Assembly: GCA_037783545.1 (NCBI GenBank)
Contig: JBBELK010000297.1
Span: 1,922,001-1,986,000 of the forward strand
Length of the DNA stretch: 64,000 nt
From: Henricia sp. BOLD:AAB3569
Lineage: Eukaryota > Echinodermata > Asteroidea > Spinulosida > Echinasteridae
Direction of reading: 5' to 3'
This document shows, one piece after another, positions 28,113 to 62,050 of this stretch. The first letter of the stretch is position 1; each line of letters opens with the position of its first letter. The position numbers and the translations under genes were made by a program. The notes below the pieces were generated by a model. It did no database searches. It was not told where the DNA came from and worked only from the letters and a program-made list of their open reading frames with translations.

Positions 28113-28184
28113 TCCCCCCTTTTGTCGACGTAACGCAGTGCAGGGTTGGGGTCTGTGCCTTCTTGACTGCCCACTGACGTATAA
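28010..28184 (-). CDS. FLAD1: FLAD1 exon 12 (C-terminus and stop)
   Basis: 175 nt including the stop. The acceptor cttttgttcattcactcag has a good pyrimidine tract. It encodes [20 protein letters not shown] and then [17 protein letters not shown] before a divergent tail and TAG. The 3' two thirds of the exon match the monomer of the 130-135 bp array that continues to about 27.0 kb, so the 3' UTR must begin inside repeats. I saw no clear AATAAA on the minus strand between 27.0 and 28.0 kb. Confidence 0.92.
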
Positions 28185-34100: not shown

Positions 34101-37100
34101 GTATTAGTGCTTTGAACTTCGGCATTTCGGATGCACTTGTGCTTTAGTTATTAAACTGAGTGATTTTTCGTAGCACGGCAGTGACTTTTTTAGCATGGCG
34201 GCGAGATTTTAAGCATGGCGGAATTCCGATTTCAAAAATTAAGCATGGCGGGCCGCCATGCTATTTTATGCACTTGGAGAACACTGTTATGGGTACAATA
34301 ACATGATCTAAGGCCGGTCTACATTGAGAGTACTGTCTGGATCTAAGGCCGGTCTACACTGAGAGTACTGTCTGGATCTAAGGCCGGTGTACACTGAGAG
34401 TACTGTCTGGATCTAAGGCCGGTGTACACTGAGAGTTTTGTCTGGATCTAAGGCCGGTGTACACTGAGAGTTCTGTCTGGATCTAAGGCCGGTCTACACT
34501 GAGAGTTCTGTCTGAATCTAAGGCCGGTCTACACTGAGAGTTCTGTCTGGATCCCAGGCCGGTCTACACTGAGAGTTCTGTCTGGATCTAAGGCCGGTCT
34601 ACACAGAGTTCTGTCTAGATCTAAGGCCGGTCGACACTGAGAGTTCTGTCTGGATCTAAGGCCGGTCTACACTGAGAGTTCTGTCTGGATCTAAGGCCGG
34701 TCTACACTGAGAGTTCTGTCTGGATCTAAGGCCGGTCTACACTGAGCGTTCTGTCTGGATCTAAGGCCGGTGTACACTGAGAGTTCTGTCTGAATCTAAG
34801 GCCGGTCTACACTGAGAGTTCTGTCTGGATCTAAGACCGGTCGACACTGAGAGTTCTGTCTGGATCCAAGGCCGGTCTACACTGAGAGTACTGTCTGGAT
34901 CTAAGGCCGGTCGACACTGAGAGTTCTGTCTGGATCTAAGGCTGGTCTACACTATGAGTACTGTCTGGATCTAAGGCCGGTCTACACTATGAGTACTGTC
35001 TGGATCTAAGGCCGGTCTACACTGAGAGTACTGTCTGGATCTAAGGCCGGTCTACACTGAGAGTTCTGTCTGGATCTAAGGCCGGTCTACACTGAGAGTT
35101 CTGTCTGGATCTATGGCCGGTCTACAATGAGAGTTCTGTCTGGATCTAAGGCTGGTCTACACTGAGAGTTCTGTCTGGATCTAAGGTCGGTCTACACTGA
35201 GAGTACTGTCTGGATCTAAGGCCGGTCTACAATGAGAGTTCTGTCTGGTTTTAAGGCCGGTCTACACTGAGAGTTCTGTCTGGATCTAAGGCCGGTCTAC
35301 ACTGAGAGTACTGTCTGGATCTAAGGCCGGTCGACACTGAGAGTTCTGTCTGGATCTAAGGCCGGTCTACACTGAGAGTACTGTCTGGATCTAAGGCCGG
35401 TCGACACTGAGAGTTCTGTCTGGATCTAAGGCCGGTCTACACTGAGAGTACTGTCTGGATCTAAGGCCGGTCTACACTGAGAGTTCTGTCTGGATCTAAG
35501 GCCGGTCTACACTGAGAGTACTGTCTGGATCTAAGGCCGGTCTACACTGAGAGTTCTGTCTGGATCTAAGGCCGGTCTACACTGAGAGTTCTAGATCTGT
35601 CTGGATCTAAGGCCGGTCTACACTGAGAGTTCTGTCTGGATCTAAGGCCGGTCTACACTGAGAGTTCTGTCTGGATCTAAGGCCGGTCTACACTGAGAGT
35701 ACTGTCTGGATCTAAGGCCGGTCGACACTGAGAGTTCTGTCTGGATCTAAGGCCGGTCTACACTGAGAGTACTGTCTGGATCTAAGGCCGGTCGACACTG
35801 AGAGTTCTGTCTGGATCTAAGGCCGGTCGACACTGAGAGTACTGTCTGGATCTAAGGCCGGTCTACACTGAGAGTTCTGTCTGGATCTAAGGCCGGTCTA
35901 CACTGAGAGTTCTGTCTGGATCTAAGGCCGGTCGACACTGAGAGTTCTGTCTGGATCTAAGGCCGGTCGACACTGAGAGTTCTGTCTGGATCTAAGGCCG
36001 GTCGACACTGAGAGTTCTGTCTGGATCTAAGGCCGGTCGACACTGAGAGTACTGTCTGGATCTAAGGCCGGTCTACACTGAGAGTTCTGTCTGGATCTAA
36101 GGCCGGTCTACACTGAGAGTTCTGTCTGGATCTAAGGCCGGTCGACACTGAGAGTTCTGTCTGGATCTAAGGCCGGTCTACACTGAGAGTACTGTCTGGA
36201 TCTAAGGCCGGTCTACACTGAGAGTTCTGTCTGGATCTAAGGCCGGTCTACACTGAGAGTTCTAGATCTGTCTGGATCTAAGGCCGGTCTACACTGAGAG
36301 TTCTGTCTGGATCTAAGGCCGGTCTACACTGAGAGTTCTGTCTGGATCTAAGGCCGGTCTACACTGAGAGTTCTGTCTGGATCTAAGGCCGGTCTACACT
36401 GAGAGTACTGTCTGGATCTAAGGCCGGTCGACACAGAGTTCTGTCTGGATCTAAGGCCGGTCTACACTGAGAGTACTGTCTGGATCTAAGGCCGGTCGAC
36501 ACTGAGAGTTCTGTCTGGATCTAAGGCCGGTCGACACTGAGAGTACTGTCTGGATCTAAGGCCGGTCTACACTGAGAGTTCTGTCTGGATCTAAGGCCGG
36601 TCTACACTGAGAGTTCTGTCTGGATCTAAGGCCGGTCGACACTGAGAGTTCTGTCTGGATCTAAGGCCGGTCGACACTGAGAGTTCTGTCTGGATCTAAG
36701 GCCGGTCGACACTGAGAGTTCTGTCTGGATCTAAGGCCGGTCTACACTGAGAGTACTGTCTGGATCTAAGGCCGGTCTACACTGAGAGTTCTGTCTGGAT
36801 CTAAGGCCGGTCTACACTGAGAGTTCTGTCTGGATCTAAGGCCGGTCGACACCGAGAGTTCTGTCTGGATCTAAGGCCGGTCTACACTGAGAGTACTGTC
36901 TGGATCTAAGGCCGGTCTACACTGAGAGTTCTGTCTGGATCTAAGGCCGGTCTACACTGAGAGTTCTAGATCTATCTGGATCTAAGGCCGGTCTACACTG
37001 AGAGTTCTGTCTGGATCTAAGGCCGGTCTACACTGAGAGTTCTGTCTGGATCTAAGGCCGGTCTACACTGAGAGTACTGTCTGGATCTAAGGCCGGTCGA

Positions 37101-40100
37101 CACTGAGAGTTCTGTCTGGATCTAAGGCCGGTCTACACTGAGAGTACTGTCTGGATCTAAGGCCGGTCGACACTGAGAGTTCTGTCTGGATCTAAGGCCG
37201 GTCGACACTGAGAGTACTGTCTGGATCTAAGGCCGGTCTACACTGAGAGTTCTGTCTGGATCTAAGGCCGGTCTACACTGAGAGTTCTGTCTGGATCTAA
37301 GGCCGGTCGACACTGAGAGTTCTGTCTGGATCTAAGGCCGGTCGACACTGAGAGTTCTGTCTGGATCTAAGGCCGGTCGACACTGAGAGTTCTGTCTGGA
37401 TCTAAGGCCGGTCGACACTGAGAGTACTGTCTGGATCTAAGGCCGGTCTACACTGAGAGTTCTGTCTGGATCTAAGGCCGGTCTACACTGAGAGTTCTGT
37501 CTGGATCTAAGGCTGGTCTACACTATGAGTACTGTCTGGATCTAAGGCCGGTCTACACTGAGAGTTCTGTCTGAATCTAAGGCCGGTCTACACTGAGAGT
37601 TCTGTCTGGATCCAAGACCGGTCGACACTGAGAGTTCTGTCAAGATCTAAGGCCGGTCGACACTGAGAGTTCTGTCTGGATCTAAGGCCGGTCTACACTG
37701 AGAGTTCTGTCTGGATCTATGGCCGGTCTACAATGAGAGTTCTGTCTGGATCTAAGGCTGGTCTACACTGAGAGTTCTGTCTGGATCTAAGGTCGGTCTA
37801 CACTGAGAGTACTGTCTGGATCTAAGGCCGGTCTACACTGAGAGTTCTGTCTGGATCTAAGGCCGGTCTACACTGAGAGTTCTGTCTGGATCTAAGGTCG
37901 GTCTACACTGAGAGTTCTGTCTGGTTTTAAGGCCGGTCTACACTGAGAGTTCTGTCTGGATCTAAGGCCGGTCTACACTGAGAGTACTGTCTGGATCTAA
38001 GGCCGGTCGACACTGAGAGTTCTGTCTGGATCTAAGGCCGGTCTACACTGAGAGTACTGTCTGGATCTAAGGCCGGTCGACACTGAGAGTTCTGTCTGGA
38101 TCTAAGGCCGGTCTACACTGAGAGTACTGTCTGGATCTAAGGCCGGTCGACACTGAGAGTTCTGTCTGGATCTAAGGCCGGTCTACACTGAGAGTACTGT
38201 CTGGATCTAAGGCCGGTCTACACTGAGAGTTCTGTCTGGATCTAAGGCCGGTCTACACTGAGAGTACTGTCTGGATCTAAGGCCGGTCTACACTGAGAGT
38301 TCTGTCTGGATCTAAGGCCGGTCTACACTGAGAGTTCTGTCTGGATCTAAGGCCGGTCTACACTGAGAGTACTGTCTGGATCTAAGGCCGGTCGACACTG
38401 AGAGTTCTGTCTGGATCTAAGGCCGGTCGACACTGAGAGTACTGTCTGGATCTAAGGCCGGTCTACACTGAGAGTTCTGTCTGGATCTAAGGCCGGTCTA
38501 CACTGAGAGTTCTGTCTGGATCTAAGGCCGGTCGACACTGAGAGTTCTGTCTGGATCTAAGGCCGGTCGACACTGAGAGTTTTGTCTGGATCTAAGGCCG
38601 GTCGACACTGAGAGTTCTGTCTGGATCTAAGGCCGGTCGACACTGAGAGTACTGTCTGGATCTAAGGCCGGTCTACACTGAGAGTACTGTCTGGATCTAA
38701 GGCCGGTCTACACTGAGAGTTCTGTCTGGATCTAAGGCCGGTCTACACTGAGAGTTCTGTCTGGATCTAAGGCCGGTCGACACTGAGAGTTCTGTCTGGA
38801 TCTAAGGCCGGTCTACACTGAGAGTACTGTCTGGATCTAAGGCCGGTCTACACTGAGAGTTCTGTCTGGATCTAAGGCCGGTCTACACTGAGAGTTCTAG
38901 ATCTGTCTGGATCTAAGGCCGGTCTACACTGAGAGTTCTGTCTGGATCTAAGGCCGGTCTACACTGAGAGTTCTGTCTGGATCTAAGGCCGGTCTACACT
39001 GAGAGTACTGTCTGGATCTAAGGCCGGTCGACACTGAGAGTTCTGTCTGGATCTAAGGCCGGTCTACACTGAGAGTAATGTCTGGATCTAAGGCCGGTCG
39101 ACACTGAGAGTTCTGTCTGGATCTAAGGCCGGTCTACACTGAGAGTTCTGTCTGGATCTAAGGCCGGTCTACACTGAGAGTTCTGTCTGGATCTAAGGCC
39201 GGTCGACACTGAGAGTTCTGTCTGGATCTAAGGCCGGTCGACACTGAGAGTTCTGTCTGGATCTAAGGCCGGTCGACACTGAGAGTTCTGTCTGGATCTA
39301 AGGCCGGTCGACACTGAGAGTACTGTCTGGATCTAAGGCCGGTCTACACTGAGAGTTCTGTCTGGATCTAAGGCCGGTCTACACTGAGAGTTCTGTCTGG
39401 ATCTAAGGCCGGTCGACACTGAGAGTTCTGTCTGGATCTAAGGCCGGTCGACACTGAGAGTACTGTCTGGATCTAAGGCCGGTCTACACTGAGAGTTCTG
39501 TCTGGATCTAAGGCCGGTCGACACTGAGAGTTCTGTCTGGATCTAAGGCCGGTCGACACTGAGAGTTCTGTCTGGATCTAAGGCCGGTCGACACTGAGAG
39601 TTCTGTCTGGATCTAAGGCCGGTGTACACAGAGTTCTGTCTGGATCTAAGGCCGGTCTACACTGAGAGTACTGTCTGGATCTAAGGCCGGTCGACACTGA
39701 GAGTTCTGTCTGGATCCAAGGCCGGTCTACACTGAGAGTTCTGTCTGGATCTAAGGCCGGTCGACACTGAGAGTTCTGTCTGGATCTAAGGCCGGTCGAC
39801 ACTGAGAGTTCTGTCTGGATCTAAGGCCGGTCTACACTGAGAGTTCTGTCTGGATCTAAGGCCGGTCTACACTGAGAGTTCTGTCTAGATCTAAGGTCGG
39901 TCTACACTGAGAGTACTGTCTGGATCTAAGGCCGGTCTACACCGAGAGTTCTGTCTGGATCTAAGGCCGGTCTACACTGAGAGTACTGTCTGGATCTAAG
40001 GCCGGTCTACACTGAGAGTTCTGTCTGGATCTAAGGTCGGTCTACACTGAGAGTACTGTCTGACAGACACAACACTCTTTTTGTTTGATATTGTTCGACT

Positions 40101-43100
40101 TTGTCTGAGGACTTCGTCCACACTATCAGACAAGTATGATGATCTTTGATGATTTTGTTCAATCGTGTGGGCACTAGCTCAAAGGTCACCTGTTATCAAA
40201 CTGTCTATTGATTGGCTGTTGTTTGTCCAGACTTAAATGACTTGAGACTTTTGTCTGAATTGCATGTTCAATCTTTTGACAGACAAGTCTGATGGTGTCT
40301 GACAGTGTCTGATGGTGTCTGACGCGCAGTCCACTACGTGATTTGTCTGACAAGACAGAGTAATGTTTGCGATAATCACCAACATTTGTATGAATGTTTC
40401 TAGCTTGGGGAAAGCTCTCTTGGTGTCAACATACAGAATCTGCAATGATTCGTTTTGATGAAGAACAAAGTCAGATTGACGTCTTCTAGACAGCGCCTTT
40501 TGTGATGTTTGCGATAATCACCAACCTTTGTATGGATTCCGTAATGAATGTTTCTAGCTCGGGGAAAGCTCTCTTGGTGTCAACATACAGAATCTGCAAT
40601 GGTTCGTTTTGATGCGGGAATTTCCTGTGAATTAAAAGATAAACAAAAAATATTAACAGACCGACAACAAACATCTGCAGCGCGATATGTGACAGAGGGC
40701 ATCCCCCCCTTCCCTTCTATTGTTCTCCCATTGTGCGTCAAACATCTAAGGAATTTTAAAGGAATTCCTTTCAGTTTTTAGGGGGTAGTGCGTTAACCCT
40801 AACTTCCCAGGGTGTATGTCAAATCATATTTGGAGGATTGAGGAGTGATGTTAGGGTTAATAAAAGGGAATAATGTATTGAGGTATAGGGGCGTTAGTGG
40901 AGTCCCGTTAGTGGTATCACATAAAGGCCGAGTGGGATATGGGACGCACACGCACTACATGCCGTATTCCACAAGCACGATAACAAATTTATCTCCAAGC
41001 AAACTTAACGCACAAATGCGTGGGTCAGTGCACAAGTGCCACAACCCGTCACGGCCCGGAATCGAACCCACATTCTAGTACTGGCACAGGAACTTGAGTT
41101 CGACGCACTAGACCGCTTGGCCATTACGCCCCACACGCGCATAACAAGCAGTTTAATAATTTGTGTTCTCTCTTTAGTTACCTCTTAATAACAGCATATA
41201 CTAGATGCAACAGTGCTGTACAGTCCTTGCCACCATTAAACCCAAGGCAAATACTAGACAATGGATACTTGTCCAGTGCCTCCTCTATTATGCCGACAGA
41301 GGGGCCAACAAACAGTGCAATATGTGCTGATTCAGGGGCCACGAGTAACTTCTCCAATTTCTCTACTGAGTTGCCGGCTGGATCTTTGTCGTAACTCACA
41401 ATGAACTCTGGTGATTGGAAATAATGGAAATGAATTCACATTGATGAGAATCAATGTACATATGCATGTACCATGCAACCCAACTCCCGAGGGTGTGTGT
41501 AAAGTCATATTGATTTTGGAGTGTTGAGGAGTGTTAGGGTTAATGCTTCTTAATCATTAGGTCTGGCTAAAATATATCGACAATTGATAAGTACAAAAGC
41601 TGTGTTATATAGGTCCGTTTTTAACCTGTTTTGAGTGCATTGCACTCGTCCGGCTGTATTGGTCTGTGGAGCGACTCAGACGCAAACGGATAAAAAACAG
41701 ACCCAAGGAGAGCCACCTTTACTCGCTTTTATAGCAACTACATGTAGAAAAGCTCAAATATATCGACAATTGATAAAGAGAGACTAATGTACAAAAGCTG
41801 AGTTATATAGGTCCGTTTTACAATTGTATCACAATCGAGTCATTACAAGAATTTTCTCGTGTTCCATCCTTAGTCTTTAGAGTGCTACCTTCTCAATTAA
41901 TTTTTGTTGTGATTTTGTACACAGAAAAGAATGAGAAATGGTAACTTAAAAAACACTCTTGGCATTAACAAAACAAACATGAGGTAAAATGACAAAAATG
42001 TAATCACAGATGTGCTTGTCTCAGGTCGGGTCAGTTCAGGTGTGGGAGCATGTGCCGCAGCGGCACTCCACCGCGTTCACCCTCTTTATCCGGTCTCCTT
42101 ATAGTGATCGATCAGGACTGCGCCAGACCCATCCCCCGCCCCTCCAAGTGGTCCCCTAGCTGCGCCAACCACGACGCACGGGGTTGAGCAACAGGTCGCT
42201 CCCACCCCGCCCCCCTAGGGTACTTGGATCCGATCGGATTTCAAAATTATCTTGCTTGTCTCCCATGAGGGAAACTTAACAATTTATAAAATTCTTGCTT
42301 GTTTTTTTTTAATAAACCAAGTATAAAGGAAAATAAATAAATATATACATCTACAAATATTCTCGGGTCTTAAGAAGCCACATTCGCAGTCATTGGTTAT
42401 AAGTTAGTAAGATTTGAGGCTATGCATGGTGGAACACAATGGGCGCGTTTTGTTTCATCACAGATACGAATCCAGATCCCAAGATGTTTCACAGCGCGCA
42501 AACAAAAGAAACTGCTCGAGGATCTCAAAATAGCTTTTTATTAACAACATTTGTCAAGTTTCTGTGCCAAATTTCACCCACGACATTCATCGTAAATAAA
42601 CAAGCGGTCTCAGTTTGTTTGCAATGTGTGTGTTATCACTGACAATTGAAATGACACGGTTTACTCAGACAAAAATCTTTTTTTGGATCTAGCACTAAAC
42701 CATCTTTCGAGGATCACTGATCTCAATCAGGATCTGCACGAAGTGAACAAGTTCACTTTAGATCTTAGCAGATCTGGATCTCGATCCATCCGAAATGAAC
42801 ACGCCCAGTGTGTGAATGGTTTGCAGTTGCACTATATGAACTATCTCTTTTGAAGATGTGACAAGTAACAAGCAAGTTCTTGAAGATTTCTCACCATTTG
42901 GCATGATCTCAAGTAACTCAGCATGGGCCTTATCAGCAGTTTCTTGGCTGTTTGTCTCTAACGTTAGCTTCACTTTGTAGTAACTGTCAGGAAGAGCACA
43001 AACATGTTTCATCATCTGCCTAGTATGCAGGAGGTTGTGGGTTCGAGTCTTGCCCGAGCACACTATGAGTTTTAGCGTGTCCTCGGGAAATGCACTTAGT

Positions 43101-46100
43101 ATATAGTGCATACCGCGTCGTGATGGGCACAAACATGTTTCATCATCTGCCTAGTATGCAGGAGGTTGTATGGTTCGAGTCCTACCCGAGCACACTGAGT
43201 TTTAGCGTGTCCTCGGGAAACGCACTTAGTATATAGTGCATACCGCGTCGTGATGGGCACAAACATGTTTCATCATCTGCCTAGTATGCAGGAGGTTGTG
43301 GGTTCGAGTCCTACCCGAGCACACTGAGTTTTAGCGTGTCCTCGGGAAACGCACTTAGTATATAGTGCATACCGCGTCGTGATGGGCACAAACATGTTTC
43401 ATCATCTGCCTAGTATGCAGGAGTTTGTACGGTTCGAGTCCTACCCGAGCACACTGAGTTTTAGCGTGTCCTCGGGAAACGCACTTAGTATATAGTGCAT
43501 ACCGCGTCGTGATGGGCACAAACATGTTTCATCATCTGCCTAGTATGCAGGAGGTTGTGGGTTCGAGTCCTACCCGAGCACACTATGAGTTTTAGCGTGT
43601 CCTCGGGAAACGCACTTAGTATATAGTGCATACCACGTCGTGATGGGCACAAACATGTTTCATCATCTGCCTAGTATGCAGGAGGTTGTGGGTTCGAGTC
43701 CTACCCGAGCACACTATGAGTTTTAGCGTGTCCTCGGGAAATGCACTTAGTATATAGTGCATACCACGTCGTGATGGGCACAAACATGTTTCATCATCTG
43801 CCTAGTATGCAGGAGGTTGTGGGTTCGAGTCCTACCCGAGCACACTATGAGTTTTAGCGTGTCCTCGGGAAATGCACTTAGTATATAGTGCATACCACGT
43901 CGTGATGGGCACAAACATGTTTCATCATCTGCCTAGTATGCAGGAGGTTGTGGGTTCGAGTCCTACCCGAGCACACTATGAGTTTTAGCGTGTCCTCGGG
44001 AAATGCACTTAGTATATAGTGCATACCACGTCGTGATGGGCACAAACATGTTTCATCATCTGCCTAGTATGCAGGAGGTTGTGGGTTCGAGTCCTACCCA
44101 AGCACACTATGAGTTTTAGCGTGTCCTCGGGAAATGCACTTAGTATATAGTGCATACCGCGTCGTGATGGGCACAAATTACCTTTTGGACGGACGCAATA
44201 AATTCCTTACTTAATGTAAATTACAGTCGCCCACTGTAGGACCATCGAACCTGCCATTCGCCATCGGCATGCCCAGTGGTCGAGTAGTTAAGACGTCTGC
44301 CTTGTTTGCAAGAGGTCGTGGGTTCAAGTCCCACCCGAGCACGCTATGAAGTTTTTTCACAGTGTCTCGGCAAAGCACTGAGTAGTGTTAATAATTATGT
44401 CGGGTAAGGGCAAAACAAACCTTAATTAATGCAGAACAAGTTTCATCCCTGGTTCTACCTTTACCGTACCTATGACTCAATTCAGGATATGATCCCAGCG
44501 TCACAGAATCCTTGTACGTAGCATTGAATCTGTTGAGAATATCAGCAACATCCATCTCCCAACAATTGATGTAGATCTCTCGCATGTGGAATGAGGTAAA
44601 GTGGGAACTTGTAAAAAGCTCACCCTGGAAACAAGGAAACACAAATCATTTGTGCCAAGTAGAGCAACCCTGTGAGTAACGCAATGCAGGGGCAGATCCA
44701 GGATTTTCCAAACGGGGAGGCGTGAAATGTACGTAGTGCAAAGCCCTAATGGCGTGGGGTCCGGGGCTCGCTTAAAGGCCCAGTGTTACTGAATCTACAC
44801 TAAAACCAGTGAACTGTTTCCCCTGCGCAGTAGTATGGACGTTCAATTCAATCTGGTTTATTCAAAACACTTTCGTAGCAGCCCGAAGGCTGAATTAAGA
44901 AAGCTTACAAGATACAATATGTTAAGATATCAATATTTTGTTCGTAATAAAAAGCCACATTACAACGTCGGTACGACTGCTGTGACCGTGGACGGCTGCC
45001 ATCTTGACAATGTATTTTGGCTGACAATCCATTCGACATATTGAGCAAACGTTGGCGCCAACATTAAAGGACCTATGACATGCTAAGCAACATTTTGCCT
45101 AATCTTTTCTTCATATGATGGATTACTTGTTCAGCAAGACATGCTATTGTTCGTATGGATGTAAAATCAATAAAAGGTAGCCTTTTTCAACTTTGAAGAT
45201 TTTATTGCAATAAATCACAGACAGAGGGCGCTGTTTTGAGTGCATCACATAAGGAAGACAGAAGGGAAAAGTTAAGAAAAAACATAAGACTTCAAGTTGG
45301 ACTTGTGGTAAATTGCTGCAGTTTCTACCCCCAGTTTTGTCATGGCTTACAGCAGGCAACATGTAAAACAAACTCAAACAGCCATGGATTACAAAAGTTT
45401 CAGGAAAATTGAGAAAAAAGTGGAATCTTTTGTGCACAGTTCAATGTGATTTTCCTGTGTTTGCCTCTTGTGACATCGTGACCTTGGTCATGAATATGCA
45501 TATTTGCATTAGCATACAAACTAAAAACCTTTGTTTTAACCCCCAAAGCAAGCTCCAAATAGGATTTTTATGACTTTAACTGAGTAAAGTGGTTTTAAAG
45601 CATAGATTTCATTGATACAAATCCTAAATAAGGGGCCCTTTAAAGGCCCAGTTAGTGTATCATTTGCAATGACCCCAAAAAGTAATCGTCGAGTTTACAG
45701 GGGAAAAGTTCTGAAAGTAAAGATTGGATTAATATAGCAACTATCCATTAAAAGGTTTTTGCTCAAAATGATATAATTTTACCAGAAAATAATCCGTAAA
45801 GATGAAATTATTTAGATCGTTTGCAAACGATTTACTTATTTTTGGTTCACATCTACGCGGTCTAAAATGCATGCATGGGTGAAGTGTACTCCATGTGCGT
45901 GTTCCAACGCGATGCATTTTCATGAATCGCGCGCATACGCAGTATGTGCGCCACAGAGTGCATGACGCAAACCACATAGTATCCGATCAACTGAGAACGA
46001 ATATTTGAAACACCCCGCCAAGACCAGGAAAACGCATATGGATTTTCGTGTTTTTTTAAAAACAGGGTACATTTGGCAAAGCTTTCTTTTGATTTATAAT

Positions 46101-49100
46101 GGTTTTATTCGCAGAACCGCTCAAAAACAGATCATCTACAGGGCCTTTAAGGGACCCGGAAAGCGTTGGATTGTAAATGCTCTGTGGTGCGATCTTAGGC
46201 AATATTTAACCACTTTAAGCAGGGAAAAGTGTGATGTCATATGAGGCAGATACCCCAACAGTTGCGAAAATTTTTTTAGGGGAGGGGTGGAGGGGGATCT
46301 GCCCTTGAAATGAGAGCTACAATTTTCTATGGTAAAGGTTTGGAATAGTAGTTCTGGCTAAATTTATCCCAGTTGGTCAAGTTTAAAAATAAACTTATGT
46401 GAACACACACCAAGGGATATGGGATGACTACTCCTACAAACCTTAAGAGACTTGAATGCCCTTCTCATGAGCTGAGGAATACCAGGGAAGATGTACACAT
46501 TAAGGACACACACCAAGGGATATGGGTTGACGACTCCTACAAACCTTAAGAGACTTGAATGCCCTTCTCATGAGCTGAGGAATACCAGGGAAGATGTACA
46601 CATTACGGACACACACCAAGGGATATGGGATGACTACTCCTACAAACCTTAAGAGACTTGAATGCCCTTCTCATGAGCTGAGGAATACCAGGGAAGATGT
46701 ACACATTACGGACACACACCAAGGGATATGGGTTGACTACTCCTACAAACCTTAAGAGACTTGAATGCCCTTCACATGAGCTGAGGAATACCAGGGAAGA
46801 TGTACACATTACAGACACACACCAAGGGATATGGGTTGACGACTCCTACAAACCTTAAGAGACTTGAATGCCCTTCTCATGAGCTGAGGAATACCAGGGA
46901 AAATGTACACATTAAGGACACACACCAAGGGATATGGGTTGACTACTCCTACAAACCTTAAGAGACTTGAATGCCCTTCTCATGAGCTGAGGAATACCAG
47001 GGAAGATGTACACATTAAGGACACACACCAAGGGATATGGGTTGACGACTCCTACAAACCTTAAGAGACTTGAATGCCCTTCTCATGAGCTGAGGAATAC
47101 CAGGGAAAATGTACACATTACGGACACACACCAAGGGATATGGGTTGACGACTCCCGTTTTATCATTCACACCATAAAGTAGTCTTGCCGACTTTGGAAC
47201 CTGGACAAAAAATAATAATTGGAGAAAAACATTAGCCCAACAAAACAGACAAAATACTGGGAAAAAGGAAGAAGGATTCAATCAAAACGTGGATAATTGT
47301 TGTGAGTTTGGGAAATCCAGATGCAGTAAAGAGATAACTTGGCTCGGCTGGGATTCGAACCACGAACCTTCTGCTTAAAGATCCAGCTGCTCTTACAGTC
47401 CCAGAGGGTGGAGGCTCATTATTTATGCAAGCTCGCCACAGTGTGTTTATACATTGCTAGGCTAATTGAATTACGCGCGCGCTTAGTTGTGTGGTGTTGT
47501 ACATGTATGTTGTTTGTACCAAAGAGTTCACATACGGTCAATTCAACCATCTATATGACACCTTCCTGAAGCAAATGTGACCATATCTGTAATATAATGT
47601 GAATATGGCTGAAACTAAATGTCATGAATTTACAAAAGGTGTGTTTTCTGTGATAAATATTTTATTTTAAAAAGACACACCCTATTTGAAGAATGGACGA
47701 GGCTATTAGCCTGCACCATGGCCCTAGTCTGGGACTGTAAGTGCGGCTTCCAGGGTAAGGTATGGAGCGCGGTGAAACTCGTGGTACAAATTTGTCTGTC
47801 GTACATTGACGAGCCACCGTCTTTAACATGCAGATATCCTACCAATTAAGCTACATGTATAAAGCCAACTGGTGGTCTCCAAACACGGTATTGTAGTAGT
47901 TGGAGAACAATGTTAGTCCAACAGTGGAGATAAACAAAACAAAACATACAAACATTACGGGGGGAGGGGGAGGAGTGGGGGGGGGGGGGGGGAGTGCATG
48001 GAAATGAGAAAAATAAAAAATAAAATATAAATTTCACTTTCCCGAAATGAATAATTTAATTTAACACAGTTGTCTTATTTAAAAGATTTTGGGTTTTTAA
48101 GTTTCAATGGCACTGATAAACAGGGTTGTAACGAATCTCCCTCTGCTCAGGTCCCAAGTCAAGTCAAACTGCCTTAGAGTCCCAAGTCAAGTCAAGTCAA
48201 GTCAAACTGCCTTCGAGTCCCAAGTCAAGTCAAACTGCCTTAGAGTCCCAAGTCAAGTCAAGTCAAGTCAAGTCAAACTGCATTTGAGTCCCAAGTCAAG
48301 TCAAGTCAAACTGCCTTCGAGTCCCAAGTCAAGTCAAACTGCCTTCGAGTCCCAAGTCAAGTCAAGTCAAACTGCCTTGGTACATTAGTTGCCACCAGTT
48401 TATAAGACTAACCTATACCCTTTTCCCACGACAAACTGCTTAACCCGGTGATTTGCCGCCCTGGGTTAAGCTTTTCTTACCCCGGGGTTCGTTAACCCCG
48501 AGTTCTATTCCCATTTGTTTCGTTTACCCGGAGTTTCGACAAACCCGGGGCGAGCTTGCCCCGGATTAAAGCGGTGTGGTTTCCCACTACACGCGGCCTG
48601 GAAATGACGCAGTGCGCGAGCTGGTCCCGCAATTGTTTTGCACTGGCTTGTCGCCAAGCAAAAGAGTAGTGGGAACGCTCACGCGATATTTCGCTGCCCC
48701 GGGGTATCTCGGGGTTAAGGATTGCCGTTACCCCCGAGTTAACTTGGAGATTTTGTAGTGGTAAAGGGGTACTAAACTGCCAGCCTTGGTACATTACTTT
48801 CCATAACCCTACCTAACCCCAACACTAATCAAAAGATAACTTACATGAGCCATTTTCAGTTCTGGTGAATCCAAGTCTCTATCTTGACCATAGTAGTGTT
48901 GACAAATCTTCACCAATTCTGGGTGTGGATGTAGCGACTCGTTAAATGCCATGGCAACACCTAATAATTACACCATAATGCACTAGCTTTAGATTAAACC
49001 TTAATGTTTCAGGTCTGTGGCAGCCAGCGAAGGTTTTATCAGCAACGCGGACCATCATGGATCTCTTCCGCCTACTTCCAAATACTGAAAGCCACCCAGA

Positions 49101-52100
49101 CCTCTCTGGGTGGCTTTCAAGAACAGCACTTTTTTCCCATCAAAATCATGGCTCAAAATGGAATCTTTAGGAAGGTCATTTTACAGGAAATTGAAATTTT
49201 TTGGTAAAATCAAAATCTCTACACGTTCTACATACCTCAATGGCCGTAATTTTCTCAAAACTTACGTACACACCTCCGTTTTAAACAATTTGACGATCGA
49301 ATTCAACTTCATCAACTCCAGCTCGTGGCATCATTACTTTCAGAGTACATTGCCGCGCCTGCGCAATGGCGCTCGCCTCTAACAATTTCAAGCACCAGAC
49401 CAGACCCAGCACGTACCATTTTCGGTCGAGGGGGGATTTGTTTTAGCGTGCCACTGTGTGGTCGGTGAATAAAGGATTCACGTCAAATGACTTTTTACTC
49501 GTAAGGTTGCCACGCGGGTCGATTTGACAAAAAGCCGTTTGGTGGTAATTTGACGTGAATCCTTCATTCACCGACCACACAGTGGCACGCTAAAACAAAT
49601 CCCCCCCTCATCCAAAAATGGAACGTGCTGGGTCTGGTCTGGTAAGCCAATACAAAAGGTGGTCAAATCTCCCGCACTTTGTCAGCGGGTATCACTTCCA
49701 ATAAAAGGGCACAATTTAGACCTCCGTAGATCGGTGCTGTTTTGAACGTGGACCATCATGGGTCTCTTCCGCCAATCCTCCGTGGTCTCGACACCAGCAT
49801 CGGCTAAAAGGGCTTTGACGTACATGTAGGTCATCCTAAAAGGCAATGCCTTGTTAGCTTATTGTTGAGAGCATCACATCATAACCCAATGTATTTTGGC
49901 TTTTTAATTGTGAAACTTTACTGCATTTGGGTCTTTCTATAAATTAGGGGTCCAAAAGTGTGACATTTAGTGTCCCCCGTTACACCTGATATGTGTTATT
50001 TTTCGTACAAAAACAATTAAAATGGCTTTTAAACCATTTTGTATGAATTGTACTTTATGTACTCACTCTTTGAGATGGAAAGTATTTAAAGAATGTGTCC
50101 TGTCACGGGGGACACCAACATTGGACCCCTAATTTATAGAAAAACCCATTTATAACACCCGTAATTTATTAATAGTTTGATTCTCCCCTACGTTTAATAC
50201 CTTCAAACGTGATGTCATCATGTGTTGGGCCGATGCCACCAGATGTGACAACGTGATGGAACTGAGATGAAAACTTGGCAACTTCAGCTGCTATAGTTGC
50301 TAAATCATCTCCCACAACTAGCACCTGAAAGGGAAAGAATCAAGTAAACATACATTATCAGAAAGATTACCATGAATGGACACCCACTTGGACCCAATAC
50401 ACTAAACCTATGGGACAACTCTCAAAAAAGTTTTTCCTTAGTAAATTCATAACAATTTTCCCTCCTAGTTTTGGGTTTATATCATGGGGACGGGTGTAAA
50501 GTGAAATGTCACAAAATTCACTGCTATTGTCATGCAGTGCATTTCCCTTTTGCTTGGAGGATGGGAATGTGTCAATACACTTGTTGACAATAGCAATGCT
50601 TTTTGTGACATTTCACTTTATATTCCGCTATACTGCACATCCCCCAATTGCTTAATCATAACAAATGACACATCATTGTAAAGAGGAATAACAGGGTTTT
50701 CCAATGATACCAAATTCAAGTTAATTTACTTGGTAACGAGAGAAATTGTCAGTCAAACTTGAGTTTCCAAACCTTTTTTGAGAAGTTTAAATTATTGGCT
50801 TCCTAAAGTGGAAGTTTAGACAATCCCAACAATTCTAATGAAAACACAAATACACCCAACAAAACAGAACAAAAACAAATAAATTACCCTTTCAACTTTG
50901 ACCCCTAGGTCATAGAGTTCCTTGCATAAGAAGTGTGAGTTAGTATCCTGAGTTTGTCCTTTTAATATCTCATCACCAATTACTGCAAAACAATAATGAA
51001 GGCAAGTCAAGTTTAAAGATAGAACACATGATTGGTAAACAGTTTCAAATAGTTTCATCTCCCTGTGTGGTTAAAACTAACCTGGCTAAAAGTCAACTCT
51101 GTTTTTCATCTAACCTTTAAGAAAACAGTCACAGACTGTGTTATGTACAGTCACTTTGCCCTGAACTACGGCCTGGTTTTGGGCAAAGTGGTTCAGGGCA
51201 AAGTGGTTCAGGGCAAAGTGGTCAAGGGCGACGTGGTCAAGGGCGAAGTGTTCTGATTTTTGAGATACCACCTCTTGTGGTCATCTTATTGTATGACGTC
51301 TTTGCAATTATTAATTAATCATCATATCTCGCTCTTCTCTCCAGTTTGCTGAAAAATGTAAAGAAAAATTACGTTGGACTATTTTTTTTTCCTGTTTAGA
51401 AGAATCTTTGGGGAAAACGGACCAGTGCACAGCATTCTTGAGATTGGTGGGACCTCCATGGTATGTTTTTCAATGTTTAATTTTGACTGTAAGGTGAAAT
51501 TTTAGTTTGGTGAACGGCGGCCATTTTGATCGTGCAGCCATGGCAAATATTTTGCTATGGACAATAAAACCTGAACAGCTAAAAGTGATTCATAAAGTCC
51601 CAATGTAAACATCAGAAAATCACTTTTAGCCTTTAAAAGTAACTTTCGTGCTTGCGCATATTTGATTTGGGGCGAATAGCGTGTATTTTATATAGGGTTT
51701 TCAGTTCTATTGTACGAGACTGACGAGCTCTGCACACACAGCGCACCAAAATCTTACAATTTTTCATCTAAAAAATTCATCCACTTTTACCTGTCGAAAT
51801 CTAACGAGCAACAATTCATTAGAAAGCTTAGAGTTTCAGCCATTCACTAACGTACATGTTCATAAAACAGCCGTCGGAGGTATGACCGACAGCCTAGGCT
51901 TAAAACCTTGCATGAAAATCTCACCTGAAACCCGGATGTCGGAGGTAACCCGGAGGTAGAATTTGTTGTGACCGTGTAGTACATGCTACAACCTACCTCC
52001 GGCTTGTTATTTTAATACTGCGTAGCTCCGGGTCACCGCCAACGCACCAACTACACGTTAGCAAAAACAATCTACCTCCGGGTACCTTTGGGTACCTCCG

Positions 52101-53187
52101 ACTTTTATAAATTTCCCTAAATTTTGCCCCACGATTTCACCGAAACTAGACATCGGATCGATGCATACTCTTCACCTTCGGCATTAATATATCGTTGGGG
52201 CGAGTGCACCTATTGAGCAAATATCAGAGCCAAGGGTCTGAAGGGACAAATTTTATTTGCGTAACTTAATTTTGCCACAGATTTGGGGTTGGAAACAGCG
52301 CCAGGGCGAGGGATACGACGACGACCTAGCTGTTCACGGCCACGGGTCTATAGTGATGTCCCCTAACTTGGCGCACTTCGACAACTCACTGGAAATCCGC
52401 TCACCTTATAGCAAAACCCTCTAGCAGAATTAGTTGAAACTTACACACCTTGTAGTATACATGTAATTCATAGGCTCCAAGAAAAAGTAATACTTTAATA
52501 TTTTGACTCATCAACAAGTACAAAATAACACAAACAATCAGGACAAAACGATGAACACTTTTTTCCCGAAATCGCCCGGACTATCCCGTAACGTGGAGCG
52601 CGTCGCTGATTGGCTGAAACGGTTTGATGCATTACTACGATGGCCCACAAAGACCACTTGCACGCACACACTGTGACACTGTACACAACGCCAGTATGCC
52701 TGGTTTTATTCACGTGAAATGCCTATTACAGGCTTCCGTGTATGGTGTCATGACAACCTGAAGCAAACGGCGATGCCTTTACATTCCGGTGAATTTCTAG
52801 TAACTGAATGATTCTTCTCCGTATTTCAGTTTTATAATTTATGAAGGTACTTGAGAACTTTATTTCTATTTAATGCCAAGTGCAACAGATTGTTTATTGC
52901 GCCAAGAGAGAACGGAAAGTAAAGCCCGCCACGTTAGGGGCCGCGCCACGTTAGGTGACATCAACAATACGCATAGTATTAGTAATCATAGTGCACACGT
53001 GTCCGAAAACTGGGCAATACAATTTCGGACGTTTATCTTTCATTAACATACTTAAAATTCCTGCCGTTTGCCTAGAATTGTTGGCCATTGTAAAGCTGAC
53101 AGTTCTCTTTGCTTGTATATAATTAACGTAAACAAGAAGTCGGCGAAAACTTGCGGCATTACTGAGAAGCCGGACGCAACCACTCAT
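28010..53187 (-). CDS. FLAD1: FAD synthase (FLAD1), 12 exons, complete CDS
   Basis: FLAD1 adenylates FMN with ATP to give FAD and pyrophosphate. I placed 12 exons, all with GT/AG introns and matching phases: 53187-53052, 50982-50888, 50324-50201, 48960-48845, 47200-47060, 44624-44470, 42983-42895, 41407-41182, 40624-40526, 33087-32966, 31617-31476, 28184-28010. They total 1620 nt, 539 residues plus stop, close to animal FLAD1 lengths. The N-terminal MoaB/CinA-like domain shows [13 protein letters not shown] near residues 48-60 and [11 protein letters not shown] at 104-114. The C-terminal PAPS-reductase-like domain shows the P-loop [14 protein letters not shown] at 341-354, MGTRRSDPY at 425-433 and [14 protein letters not shown] in exon 11. 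The start is the first ATG of an Arg-rich, acid-free leader (mitochondrial presequence-like); a second in-frame Met at 34 (MANNSRQ) would give a cytosolic form, as known for mammalian FLAD1. Introns run from 557 to 7438 bp and are filled with repeats. Exon assignment rests on family knowledge and phase consistency; no transcript was available. Confidence 0.95.
28683..29061. mobile_element. MITE with 18-bp TIRs (FLAD1 intron 11)
   Basis: Perfect inverted ends TAGAACACATGATTGGTA (28683-28700) and its complement at 29044-29061. The interior holds short GGGCGAAGTGG-type repeats in both orientations. Related partial copies lie at 51.0-51.27 kb and 55.79-55.96 kb. Confidence 0.85.
29205..31190. repeat. 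23-bp minisatellite, about 86 copies (FLAD1 intron 11)
   Basis: Monomer TGCCTGGTTTTGGGCACCTC + ACT, with a second common form ending CAAACCATT and a third ending CACCTCATT. Since 23 is not a multiple of 3, all three plus frames stay open with a 23-residue period ([12 protein letters not shown]...), giving false frames of up to 648 codons. The core GGTTTTGGGCAAA also occurs in the GGGCAAAGTGG element at 51.15-51.25 kb, suggesting that family as the source. Confidence 0.96.
31476..31617 (-). CDS. FLAD1: FLAD1 exon 11 (RINP motif)
   Basis: 142 nt, phase 1 in, phase 2 out. Acceptor taatttggcag, donor gtaaga. It encodes [20 protein letters not shown] and [20 protein letters not shown] through CRLYDKG, a highly conserved block. 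The last Gly codon is split GG/T with exon 12. Confidence 0.96.
31893..32256. mobile_element. TIR element (FLAD1 intron 10)
   Basis: Inverted ends GGGGTCACACGAATTACGAG near 31900 and CTCGTAATTTGTGTGACCCC near 32235-32254. The body has no coding signal. A further GTGTGACCCC word follows to about 32.31 kb, so the right boundary is approximate. Confidence 0.7.
32727..32960. mobile_element. GCACCTATCAATTGT-type MITE, copy 3 (intron 10)
   Basis: The left end GCACCATCAATTGTTCCCC and right end GGGGACAATTGGTAGGTGCA are inverted. The interior shares the TGGGGAT...GTCAC and AGGTGGGG words with the copies at 6.37 and 8.47 kb. The right end comes within 6 bp of FLAD1 exon 10, covering its donor side. 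Confidence 0.75.
32966..33087 (-). CDS. FLAD1: FLAD1 exon 10 (GTRRSDPY motif)
   Basis: 122 nt, phase 2 in, phase 1 out. Acceptor cttccatcccag, donor gtattt. It encodes [20 protein letters not shown] and [12 protein letters not shown], the substrate-binding loop of FAD synthase. A TIR element with a TTATG target duplication begins only 57 bp upstream of the acceptor. Confidence 0.96.
33145..34286. mobile_element. TIR element with TTATG target duplication (intron 9)
   Basis: Ends begin CAGTGTTCTCCAA and finish with its complement TTGGAGAACACTG; both are followed inside by AAAAT and GCATGGNGGC words. The 5-bp TTATG is repeated directly at 33140-33144 and 34287-34291. CAG-start TIRs with a 5-bp duplication suggest a hAT5-like non-autonomous element. 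No transposase frame was seen in the 1.1-kb body. Confidence 0.75.
33200..33345. repeat. ACATGTAT-rich microsatellite
   Basis: Degenerate runs of ACATGTAT, CATGTATGCACA and ACATACATGAAA inside the left part of the 33.1-kb TIR element. Low complexity, no coding sense. Confidence 0.8.
34305..40062. repeat. 35-bp minisatellite, about 164 copies (FLAD1 intron 9)
   Basis: Monomer GGATCTAAGGCCGGTCTACA + CTGAGAGTTCTGTCT (35 bp). Two sites vary in blocks: TCTACAC/TCGACAC and AGTTCTG/AGTACTG. A longer unit containing TTCTAGATCTGTCTGG recurs near 35590, 36260, 36963 and 38897, showing a higher-order repeat of roughly 670-700 bp. The monomer resembles the TAA-flanked terminus of Harbinger-type elements in this window (TAAGGCCCGTTTACACTGG at the right end of the 25.4-kb element). 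Confidence 0.97.
40362..40460 (-). pseudogene. Decayed duplicate of FLAD1 exon 9
   Basis: Minus-strand sequence repeats exon 9 almost exactly ([20 protein letters not shown]). It has lost the acceptor AG and the GGAATTCC start, carries a 12-nt deletion near the 3' end, and reads caaat/gttggt where exon 9 has caaag/gttggt. The intron bases after the donor are also duplicated, so the copy arose by a local tandem duplication of about 140 bp. It is unlikely to be spliced. Confidence 0.88.
40526..40624 (-). CDS. FLAD1: FLAD1 exon 9
   Basis: 99 nt, phase 2 on both sides. Acceptor cttttaattcacag, donor gttggt. It encodes [20 protein letters not shown] and [13 protein letters not shown], the strand and helix after the P-loop. 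A degenerate second copy lies about 140 bp further 3'. Confidence 0.94.
40855..41135 (-). mobile_element. tRNA-derived SINE (intron 8)
   Basis: In minus orientation: A-box-like TGGCCAAGCGGTCTAG followed by B box GGTTCGATTCC (plus 41058-41068), then a non-tRNA body running to about 40855. The tRNA-like head resembles a long-variable-arm class, but no cloverleaf was verified. Confidence 0.7.
41182..41407 (-). CDS. FLAD1: FLAD1 exon 8 (P-loop of FAD synthase domain)
   Basis: 226 nt, the largest exon, phase 1 in, phase 2 out. Acceptor ccaatcaccag, donor gtaact. It encodes the interdomain linker and [17 protein letters not shown], the PP-loop-like ATP-binding motif of the PAPS-reductase-type FAD synthase domain. 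Confidence 0.96.
41565..41825. repeat. Direct repeat pair in FLAD1 intron 7 flank
   Basis: AATATATCGACAATTGATAA followed by TACAAAAGCTGNGTTATATA and GGTCCGTTTT occurs at about 41570-41625 and again at 41756-41820, separated by about 130 bp. Possibly the ends of a small insertion or a local duplication. Confidence 0.6.
42437..42812. mobile_element. TIR element (FLAD1 intron 7)
   Basis: The left end CAATGGGCGCGTTTTGTTTC is mirrored by CGAAATGAACACGCCCAGTG on the right. GATCTGGATC and AGATCCAGATC words near the inner edges extend the imperfect inverted repeat. Confidence 0.6.
42895..42983 (-). CDS. FLAD1: FLAD1 exon 7
   Basis: 89 nt, phase 2 in, phase 1 out. Acceptor cttcctgacag, donor gtgaga. 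It encodes [20 protein letters not shown] and LLEIMPNG, the end of the N-terminal domain. A SINE-derived tandem array starts about 14 nt upstream of the acceptor, so the branch point and part of the pyrimidine tract must lie in repeat sequence. Confidence 0.92.
42997..44171 (+). repeat. 129-131 bp SINE-derived tandem array in FLAD1 intron 6
   Basis: The word CACAAACATG recurs at 42997, 43128, 43258, 43387, 43517, 43648, 43779, 43910 and 44041, nine units with few changes. Each unit contains GGGTTCGAGTCCTACCCGAG, a tRNA B-box/T-arm word, followed by a tail that matches the tail of the tRNA-like SINE at 44.26-44.41 kb. The array is therefore an amplified SINE 3' part. Confidence 0.88.
44262..44412 (+). 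mobile_element. tRNA-derived SINE (intron 6)
   Basis: An A-box-like AGTGGTCGAGTAGTTAAGACG sits near 44275 and a B box GGTTCAAGTCC at 44321-44331, with CCCACCCGAGC closing the T arm. No complete acceptor stem or CCA is seen, so it is a SINE head and not a working tRNA. It is the likely parent of the adjacent array. Confidence 0.75.
44470..44624 (-). CDS. FLAD1: FLAD1 exon 6
   Basis: 155 nt, phase 0 in, phase 2 out. Acceptor ttccttgtttccag, donor gtacgg. It encodes [20 protein letters not shown] through [11 protein letters not shown], matching the family's conserved LGSYP turn. Confidence 0.92.
44770..46165. mobile_element. Composite dispersed element with nested insertion (intron 5)
   Basis: The outer parts (44770-45062 and 45650-46160) match an uninterrupted copy at 57.36-58.16 kb in opposite orientation, including CCTGCGCAGTAGTATGGACG and TCGTTTGCAAACGATTTACT. 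The middle (about 45063-45650) is absent from the other copy and is bounded by TTAAAGGACC and CCTTTAAAGGCCC, so it is a later insertion near a TTTAA site. Confidence 0.75.
46403..47155 (-). repeat. 103-bp tandem array derived from FLAD1 exon 5 and its donor
   Basis: The word CCTACAAAC recurs at 46433, 46536, 46639, 46742, 46845, 46948 and 47051, spacing exactly 103 bp. In minus orientation the monomer is 96 nt of exon 5 (GGAGTC to CTTAAG, 32 codons) plus the first 7 intron bases gtttgta. There is the true exon, six complete further copies and one truncated head. Every copy keeps the GTTTGT donor but has only gtttgtag in front of it, with no pyrimidine tract. Confidence 0.93.
47060..47200 (-). 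CDS. FLAD1: FLAD1 exon 5 ([11 protein letters not shown])
   Basis: 141 nt, 47 codons, phase 0 on both sides. Acceptor attttttgtccag, donor gtttgt. It encodes [16 protein letters not shown] and then [16 protein letters not shown], a conserved strand-helix of the N-terminal domain. The last 96 nt and the first 7 nt of the intron are the monomer of the adjacent 103-bp tandem array. Only the most upstream donor gives an open protein: reading on into the array meets a stop in about 15 codons. Confidence 0.93.
47285..47750. repeat. Dispersed repeat with tRNA-like word (intron 4)
   Basis: It holds GGCTGGGATTCGAACCACGA (complement of a B box) near 47347. From about 47511 to 47730 it matches 62060-62330 kb in inverted orientation: TTTGTACCAAAGAGTTC, AAAAGGTGTGTTTTCTGTGA and GACGAGGCTATTAGCCTGCA. 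Probably a SINE or MITE family. Confidence 0.65.
47958..47993. repeat. Poly-G tract (intron 4)
   Basis: A nearly pure G run of over 30 bases broken only by a few A and T. A likely replication or assembly weak point. Confidence 0.85.
48150..48385. repeat. AAGTC micro/minisatellite (intron 4)
   Basis: Units of the form GAGTCCCAAGTCAAGTCAAA + CTGCCTT, with the AAGTC pentamer repeated 2 to 6 times per unit. Confidence 0.9.
48412..48774. mobile_element. TIR element (intron 4)
   Basis: Left TACCCTTTTCCCACGACAAA is mirrored by TTTGTAGTGGTAAAGGGGTA on the right. The interior is rich in CCCCGGGGTT/AACCCCGAG words that also form internal inverted pairs. Confidence 0.7.
48845..48960 (-). CDS. FLAD1: FLAD1 exon 4
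   Basis: 116 nt, phase 1 in, phase 0 out. The acceptor (ggtgtaattattag) has a weak pyrimidine tract; the donor is gtaagt. It encodes [20 protein letters not shown] and a linker ending PELKMAH, aligning with the helical segment after the GGIGPTHDD loop. Confidence 0.93.
49394..49643. mobile_element. Foldback MITE (intron 3)
   Basis: Arms of about 90 bp: ACCAGACCAGACCCAGCACG at the left and CGTGCTGGGTCTGGTCTGGT at the right, continuing through GGGGGGATTTGTTTTAGCGT and GTGTGGTCGGTGAAT with few mismatches. A possible AAGC direct duplication flanks it. Confidence 0.9.
49927..50153. mobile_element. MITE with 27-bp TIRs (intron 3)
   Basis: GGGTCTTTCTATAAATTAGG + GGTCCAA at the left, complement at 50125-50153 with one mismatch. 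A second inverted layer is GTGTCCCCCG/ACGGGGGACAC. It lies less than 60 bp from the exon 3 donor. Confidence 0.9.
50201..50324 (-). CDS. FLAD1: FLAD1 exon 3 (GGIGPTHDD motif)
   Basis: 124 nt, phase 0 in, phase 1 out. Acceptor tttccctttcag, donor gtatta. It encodes [18 protein letters not shown] and [17 protein letters not shown], the conserved nucleotide/pterin-site loop of the MoaB-like fold. Confidence 0.95.
50486..50632. mobile_element. Short foldback MITE (intron 2 flank)
   Basis: AAAGTGAAATGTCACAAAAT and CACTGCTATTGTCA at the left, with TGACAATAGCAATG and TTGTGACATTTCACTTTA at the right. Confidence 0.85.
50888..50982 (-). CDS. FLAD1: FLAD1 exon 2 (GDEILKG motif)
   Basis: 95 nt, phase 1 in, phase 0 out. 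Acceptor is a pyrimidine-rich ttgttttgcag; donor is gtaatt after GAAAGG. It encodes [20 protein letters not shown] and the following helix, the signature start of the molybdopterin-binding-like domain of FAD synthases and CinA. Confidence 0.95.
51017..51274. mobile_element. Truncated copy of the TAGAACACATGATTGG MITE (FLAD1 intron 1)
   Basis: It starts at TAGAACACATGATTGGTA, contains tandem GGGCAAAGTGGTTCA units and ends CTGATTTTTGAGATACCA, inverted relative to the 28.7-kb copy. The distal TIR is lost. Confidence 0.75.
51861..52112. mobile_element. TIR-like element (intron 1)
   Basis: ATAAAACAGCCGTCGGAGGT at the left faces TACCTCCGACTTTTATAAA at the right. The interior repeats TACCTCCGGGT and CCGGAGGT words in both orientations. 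Confidence 0.55.
53052..53187 (-). CDS. FLAD1: FLAD1 exon 1 (start codon, presequence)
   Basis: 136 nt ending in phase 1 at donor gtatgt. It encodes [20 protein letters not shown] and on to TAGIL, with Arg at 6, 15, 16 and 28 and no acidic residue before the second Met at 34. That is the composition of a mitochondrial targeting peptide. TAGIL followed by the split Ile from exon 2 joins directly to the GDEILKG motif, which is the argument for this being the true first coding exon. Confidence 0.88.
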
Positions 53188-58982: not shown

Positions 58983-59398
58983 GGGCCGATTTGTGGGGTT
59001 CTTGCTTGTCATGGTTCTAGGAATTATGATATAGGTTTTCCCGGCCAATTTCAGCAAAGAAGCGGGCAATTTGATCACGGCGTCATTCTATTTGGCGCGA
59101 ATTCGAATGCTGCACGAAATCAGCATTCAAATTATTTTTATAAATTCGCAATTCCACTCCTGCGTCAAACGATTTAAGTGAAAACCTATGAGGTCAGTGG
59201 TCGCGACATTGGTAAGCAAGCATAATGTGTTGTGTGGTGGAGTAAACTCGACATTGGTAAGCAAAGGGTTAATAAAAATAAAAGTCCGATTTAACAACTG
59301 CATCGATCAGCATTCAAATTCGCAGGAAATTTTCAAACCACACACTTCGTCATTCGTATTCATCTATGGGCAGACATTTGTGAAATTAAAACACTAAG

Positions 59399-61470: not shown

Positions 61471-61479
61471 ATGTCAAGT

Positions 61480-62050
61480 TAACTTGAGGAGGGGCCATCA
61501 AGAAGCTAAAGACCGATGATGTTTTGAACTGCAGTCAACAACCAGAAACATCGCTGAAAGTCCCCTTCTCTTGGGAACAAATAATGTGCACACCACACTG
61601 GATCTACAGCTTTGCATGCCATCCGAAGGATGAAGAAAGTGTGATTAAAAGCTTAAATTGCCAAGTGTATAGCTCCATTATTTAAGGGACTCTAGTAAAA
61701 AAAAATAGAACAAATTGAAATAATCGAATAGATGCCATCTTGTGGAGCAGTTTCTTTGTTCATTAAAGACATACCTCGTGTTGAAAAAACTCTGTAAAAT
61801 GTCAGCCACATATGAAGTACCTTAGAAAACATGTAAAATCAATTCATGGCTTTTGTGTTGTATTGAATGGTTCTAAAAGTCTTTTGCACAATATTTTTTA
61901 GAAAACCACCTGCAGTTAATTTTGTGTTAATTTCTCACACAAATTACCATTTTTTACTGAAATAAAACCATGTGGTGTTTGGTACCATTGTTATTAACAC
62001 ATTTAGTAAGTTTTTTTTGTCAACTCGTGAACAAAAATGGGGTCACTGCA
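61480..62050. other. Intergenic, nothing recognised
   Basis: A/T-rich, no repeat partner seen within the window and no coding signal. Confidence 0.5.

Follow-up and report, generated by a model that had tools for sequence, protein, structure and literature searches.

How does a conserved enzyme gene live with a tandem array that starts inside one of its own coding exons and carries the splice donor along in every full unit? The window (the whole stretch of DNA analysed, 64,000 nucleotides) raises this question in a gene that a preliminary description had taken for FLAD1, with the array at exon 5. Both assignments are upheld by the domains of the product, by its match to a solved FAD synthase (8ron_A, 8.8e-145) and by a 12-exon model. 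What we take to be the human FLAD1 sequence served as the query for first locating the exons. All introns of the resulting model are GT-AG, and its frame, intact across the 12 exons, encodes MoCF-like, FLAD1-middle and PAPS-reductase domains, with profile matches to PF24102 (FLAD1_M, 1.1e-24), PF00994 and PF01507. Introns 4 and 5 measure 1,644 and 2,435 nt in this version of the locus.

28010..53187, minus strand: FLAD1 coding span, 12 exons, 539 amino acids (gene model with domain and structure matches)
47060..47200, minus strand: FLAD1 exon 5, 141 nt, phase 0/0, acceptor TTTTTTGTCCAG/GTT, donor AAG/GTTTGTAGG, the slash marking the splice junction (gene model and homology)

TRF places the array at 46403-47155, with a period of 103, 7.3 copies, 97% match and 0% indels. 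A chance origin is ruled out by the 103-bp unit, the fixed spacing and the 97% identity. Read in register on the minus strand, the array consists of seven full 103-bp copies and a 32-bp partial eighth, each unit comprising the last 96 nt (32 codons) of exon 5 and 7 nt of intron (GTTTGTA). The unit, its spacing and the six extra full copies are thus as first described. That description had also called the array exact and had run it from 46403 to 47200. The spacing is indeed exact and the start stands; the copies, by contrast, are about 97-98% alike, and the array ends at 47155, the exon bases 47156-47200 lying outside it, unrepeated. Six positions of the unit vary (6, 11, 34, 35, 48 and 73), the mean pairwise difference among the seven full copies is 2.4%, and only two of the seven, copies 2 and 7, are identical. 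As a head-to-tail repeat with a unit of tens of base pairs or more (here 103 bp x 7.3), the array is a minisatellite, its unit standing at the long end of that class.

47053..47155, minus strand: copy 1, the true 3' 96 nt of exon 5 and 7 nt of intron, with the only donor predicted to be productive by reading frame
46950..47052, minus strand: copy 2, decoy donor
46847..46949, minus strand: copy 3, decoy donor
46744..46846, minus strand: copy 4, decoy donor, with an in-frame TGA (AGA to TGA)
46641..46743, minus strand: copy 5, decoy donor
46538..46640, minus strand: copy 6, decoy donor
46435..46537, minus strand: copy 7, decoy donor (copies 1 to 7 from array alignment and donor/frame analysis)
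46403..46434, minus strand: partial copy 8, 32 bp, no donor (array alignment and comparison with the second version of the locus)

The same usable-looking donor, AAG/GTTTGTAGG, is kept in 7/7 full copies, as had been claimed, and the array starts in the exon edge, which gives it the anatomy of a donor-bearing exon-edge minisatellite of the IFI6 type. It had further been proposed that only the most upstream donor keeps the frame. By length alone this fails, as donors 4 and 7 keep it too; in practice it holds, as donors 2-7 all lead to one and the same stop, at codon 219. This is the 15th codon past the normal junction, in line with the roughly 15 codons first estimated. From the stop to the exon 5/6 junction the predicted distances are 61, 164, 267, 370, 473 and 576 nt for donors 2, 3, 4, 5, 6 and 7, respectively. 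GTTTGT is not a strong donor, having 6/9 consensus matches.

A search of the assembly (740.7 Mb, 2104 contigs) located the unit twice: in the window, on contig C297, and at C501:1624270-1624476. The array on C501 has two copies, the first ending AAG/GTTTGTAGG and the second AAG/GTTAGTAGCTCGAC, after which the intron continues; copy 2 there probably retains the original intron start GTTAGTAGC and the right flank GTTAGTAGCTCGAC. FLAD1 is intact on both contigs, at 539 amino acids each, the two coding sequences differing at 22 of 1620 nt (11 synonymous, 11 within 10 amino-acid-changing codons), and introns 4 and 5 on C501 measure 2,225 and 485 nt. A processed or dead gene is ruled out by the 12 exons, intact in both versions. 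The window's partial copy 8 runs straight into TCACATAAG, a sequence that on C501 sits about 70 nt past the GTTAGT donor; the last copy of the window version has thus apparently been truncated at its end. The two versions do not decide which base at donor position +4, A or T, is the older. Copy number, put forward earlier as a check on the array, does differ between two versions of the locus within one assembly: it is 7.3 in the window and 2.0 on C501, the two contigs probably being haplotypes.

We think it likely that the array is an exon-edge minisatellite, variable in length and probably neutral, whose decoy donors are mostly silent. Its founder would have been one tandem duplication of a 103-bp segment, running from ...AAAAC[AG]GAGTC to ...GTTAGT[AG]CTCG, with a 2-bp AG microhomology; a simple event of this kind is suggested by the two-copy version on C501, which shows both flank and junction. 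Comparison of the two versions suggests that the window version subsequently expanded, by slippage or unequal exchange, to eight copies or more, and that a later deletion took most of the last copy together with its downstream donor. The exon-5 acceptor most likely still pairs with the nearest donor, that of copy 1, because the donors do not differ in sequence, the introns on both sides are long and the site closest to the exon is the one favoured under exon definition. Copies 2-7 would then leave with the intron, the array would be near neutral, and no more than a minor fraction of transcripts would end at codon 219 and decay. Nearly silent decoys would explain how the array has survived in a conserved enzyme gene.

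The case for silent decoys leans on minigene work. According to the excerpted text of PMC9225289, the splice sites that lie nearest to each other across the exon are favoured when the introns on either side are long, and minigenes in which two identical strong donors competed, with 365 nt of intron on each side, used the upstream one exclusively. When both donors were weakened, larger exons were mostly skipped and smaller ones kept the upstream preference (PMC9225289). The same excerpt gives a downstream preference of about 60% for alternative-donor events taken without a strength filter, and cites classical competition experiments (Reed and Maniatis) that favoured the intron-proximal donor. 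These last two results, like the skipping of larger exons, count against silent decoys. The weak point of our explanation is donor strength, given the modest match of GTTTGT and the decoy on C501, whose GTTAGT pairs with U1 slightly better than the real GTTTGT (-8.3 against -7.6 kcal/mol). Of the two versions, the two-copy one is the more likely to leak, if leakage occurs at all.

Poison exons couple alternative splicing to nonsense-mediated decay, for which the usual rule asks for a stop at least about 50 nt ahead of an exon junction. The predicted products of donors 2-7 would fall within that rule, at 61 to 576 nt, and in this they resemble poison-exon products, with a premature stop well upstream of the junction. 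The FLAD1 array differs from a poison exon in not being a separate cassette exon, and its decoy isoforms are putative. A poison-exon style switch on FLAD1 level had been suggested for this locus. In such a scheme the decoys would be partly used and the codon-219 products degraded, so that copy number or donor strength would lower or regulate FLAD1, and would do so allele-specifically (two copies with a stronger decoy against seven equal donors). The upstream exonic context is nearly the same at every decoy, the decoy on C501 pairs better than its real donor, and repeat units in IFI6 do serve as donors, all of which would suit such regulation. Against it, equal-strength minigenes under exon definition used the upstream donor exclusively (excerpted text of PMC9225289), and there is no sign of donor-specific selection, the donors being conserved only as much as the unit as a whole. 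We consider regulation through the decoys unlikely, and the suggested switch is unsupported. The mostly silent decoys of a neutral minisatellite remain our preferred reading.

An array with a unit of about 12 bp lies at the 3' edge of an exon in human IFI6 (6-16, G1P3), the closest precedent for this locus. That minisatellite contains several donor sites for splicing (Turri et al. 1995, cited in PMC4526556); two of its downstream units act as donors, and three mRNA species result (PMC4526556, as excerpted). The likeness lies in repeat units with donors in tandem, here predicted; unlike in IFI6, the FLAD1 unit is 103 bp long and holds 32 codons of a conserved exon, and the frame closes past donor 1. 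Minisatellites at exon-intron boundaries are also known from human segmental-duplication genes, including PRDM7, where the internal tandem repeats vary in copy number and can alter splicing (PMC2812944, in its excerpted part). Those repeats have units of about 30 bp on average, in about four copies, and belong to primate-specific paralogues, whereas the FLAD1 array lies in a conserved metabolic gene. In potato, a new intron that is spliced out arose when an intron-exon boundary was duplicated in tandem (PMC4974935, as excerpted). There, as here, a boundary-crossing duplication carries splice signals along; unlike there, the real FLAD1 exon can splice as before, and a possible 73-nt intron can be read from the letters only. 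The array had been called unusual, and in view of IFI6 and the excerpted PMC2812944 cases, and of further exon-edge duplications in the same genome, this is true only in a relative sense. Among the matches listed for the open-licence literature, seen as titles and the starts of abstracts, we found no long-unit exon-edge array of this kind and no FLAD1 array. What is added to the known cases is a long unit from a conserved coding exon, a two-copy version close to the founder, recurrence within one gene, and a mirror array on the acceptor side.

The difference between 7.3 and 2.0 copies could also be a divergence between two loci, if C501 were a recent paralogous segmental duplication. Among the matches listed, none fell on C501 for L007:1-3000, about 220 kb left of the window (best 40 of 3380 candidates scored), or for L010:1-4000, about 210 kb right of it (best 40 of 7288 candidates scored). 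L010 also matches 37 kb along C297 itself at 99% (C297:2200001-2204000 and 2237221-2241214), and a segment of C501, 1720001-1726000, recurs at 90-91% on two other contigs, C754 and C3. These points would suit a paralogue. However, C297 and C501 are collinear in 28 blocks that total 32,211 bp, at a mean identity of 96.4%, across 84 kb of C297. More blocks, at 94.6-99.8%, follow rightward to C297:2,013,191; the same C501 segment matches C297:2086463-2092413 at 97%, and additional pieces reach 2,103,290. In all, about 190 kb of C297 is collinear in this way; identity is uneven, at 90.6-99.8% by block, and there are large indels, a pattern like that between haplotypes. The order of CCT gene exons is likewise repeated across two or three contigs, as if both haplotypes had been kept in the assembly, and the unit itself was found at only two places. 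We therefore hold a paralogue to be improbable, and the versions on C297 and C501 are probably two haplotypes.

It is far less probable that the copies act as a ladder of in-frame microexons, inserting 10-residue repeats through a cryptic acceptor, TTCCCTGGTATTCCTCAG/CTC, within the unit. Donor n together with the TTCCCTGGTATTCCTCAG/CTC of copy n+1 could remove a 73-nt intron and add 30 nt in frame, and splicing of this kind would join AAG to CTCATGAG across copies. The candidate exon has 30 nt and phase 0, and the pyrimidine content of its acceptor, 0.81, equals or exceeds that of 10 of the 11 real FLAD1 acceptors. Yet the inserted residues would lie where the first domain (residues 43-203) ends, copy 4 holds a TGA, the real exon 5 reads through the same candidate acceptor, and very short exons such as these are spliced poorly. 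Misassembly is frequent in tandem repeats, but an inflated or invented copy number is hardly credible here, because the copies carry different variants, in mixed order, and the duplication recurs, junction included, on a second contig.

Is exon 5 then the only exon to have been duplicated at its edge? An exon-by-exon self comparison found 3'-end duplications in 3/12 FLAD1 exons, namely 5, 9 and 12.

40526..40624, minus strand: FLAD1 exon 9 (gene model, self comparison)
40360-40460, minus strand: one extra tandem copy, downstream, of the 3' 89 nt and donor of exon 9, at an offset of 154, its donor degraded (pair 40360-40614; self comparison)
28010..28184, minus strand: FLAD1 exon 12, the last coding exon, with a TAG stop (gene model)
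27002..28118, minus strand: exon-12 array, about seven copies of a 133-135 bp unit that combines the 3' coding end, the stop codon and the following sequence (TRF, self comparison)

The exon-9 duplication is found on both contigs. The exon-12 array is older, with copies about 81-97% alike and a break of some 200 bp filled by other sequence, and its copy numbers by TRF are the same on both contigs (4.6 and 2.3). Set against uniform placement of the founder units, 3'-end duplications in three of 12 exons exceed expectation (post hoc P of 0.004 for the whole window and 0.015 for the gene span), which counts, with the uncertainty of a post hoc test, against the neutral explanation. Placement of whole long-unit arrays gave post hoc P values of 0.07 (window, six arrays) and 0.23 (gene span, five arrays), and with short-unit arrays included 0.30 (window, nine arrays) and 0.81 (gene span, eight arrays). 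Any preference of tandem duplication for exons is accordingly weak and uncertain.

Beyond the window, long-unit tandem arrays are common: ten 10-kb samples (100 kb), of which six came from C297 and two of those six from directly beside the window, contained 10, five in a single sample, at a TRF coverage of 9.7%. In the CCT family no regular array was seen by eye in 67 matches (87/87 candidates scored). In the Ras family one was seen by eye among 150 matches, the best 150 of 343 candidates scored; it accounts for seven of the matches and lies on contig C58, in a gene that we take, from its peptide, to be Rab14-like.

C58:412225-413514: array in the Rab14-like gene, 171 bp x 7.6, acceptor and exon (TRF and sequence reading)

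Each unit consists of an acceptor, the exon and a junction AAACACA/GTTATTC, the last copy alone having AAACACA/GTGAGT. There are seven near-identical acceptors. When the frame at the upstream exon's end is carried forward, acceptors 1-6 all hit stops, and acceptor 7, the exon-proximal one, is alone open into the next exon (120 nt read). As far as these predicted reading frames go, the array mirrors that of FLAD1, with the putative productive site nearest the exon and the decoys on the intron side in both.

Seven identical 9-nt donors in near-identical context, together with a two-copy version and a seven-acceptor mirror, amount to a natural experiment on the choice between exon definition and intron-proximal splicing, so far studied with designed minigenes. 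The locus also displays a likely route from exon edge to minisatellite, with the near-founder state still visible. It is tempting to speculate that this genome repeatedly turns exon edges into minisatellites, at donors (FLAD1 exons 5 and 9) as well as at acceptors (the Rab14-like gene), that purifying selection keeps only those arrays whose productive site is exon-proximal, and that the arrays, varying in length between chromosomes, form a heritable copy-number dial on the splicing and decay of housekeeping genes. We give this broader proposal only a slim chance of being right.

Several other repeats accompany the gene. A 131-bp array at 42996-44177 was considered as exon-seeded and ruled out, as it resembles an adjacent tRNA-Thr gene.

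44270-44342, plus strand: tRNA-Thr (TGT anticodon) in FLAD1 intron 6

This tRNA-like array (131 bp x 9) adjoins the tRNA-Thr gene and stops about a dozen bp short of the first base of exon 7; its TRF copy number is nearly equal on the two contigs (9.1 vs 9.2). By the same measure the contigs differ in the exon-5 array (7.3 vs 2.0) and in a short-unit array of intron 11. The latter is a 23-bp minisatellite of 84 copies at 29264-31191 (TRF), with a C501 counterpart of 4.2 kb. Most of intron 9 is occupied by a 35-bp minisatellite of 164 copies at 34305-40062 (TRF), whose C501 counterparts, among the matches listed, cover much less sequence. At 59394-61480 lie several copies of a unit of about 450 bp, some inverted and with AAGGCCCGCTTCAAACGTCGCGCTT-like ends, which by eye look like nested palindromic elements.
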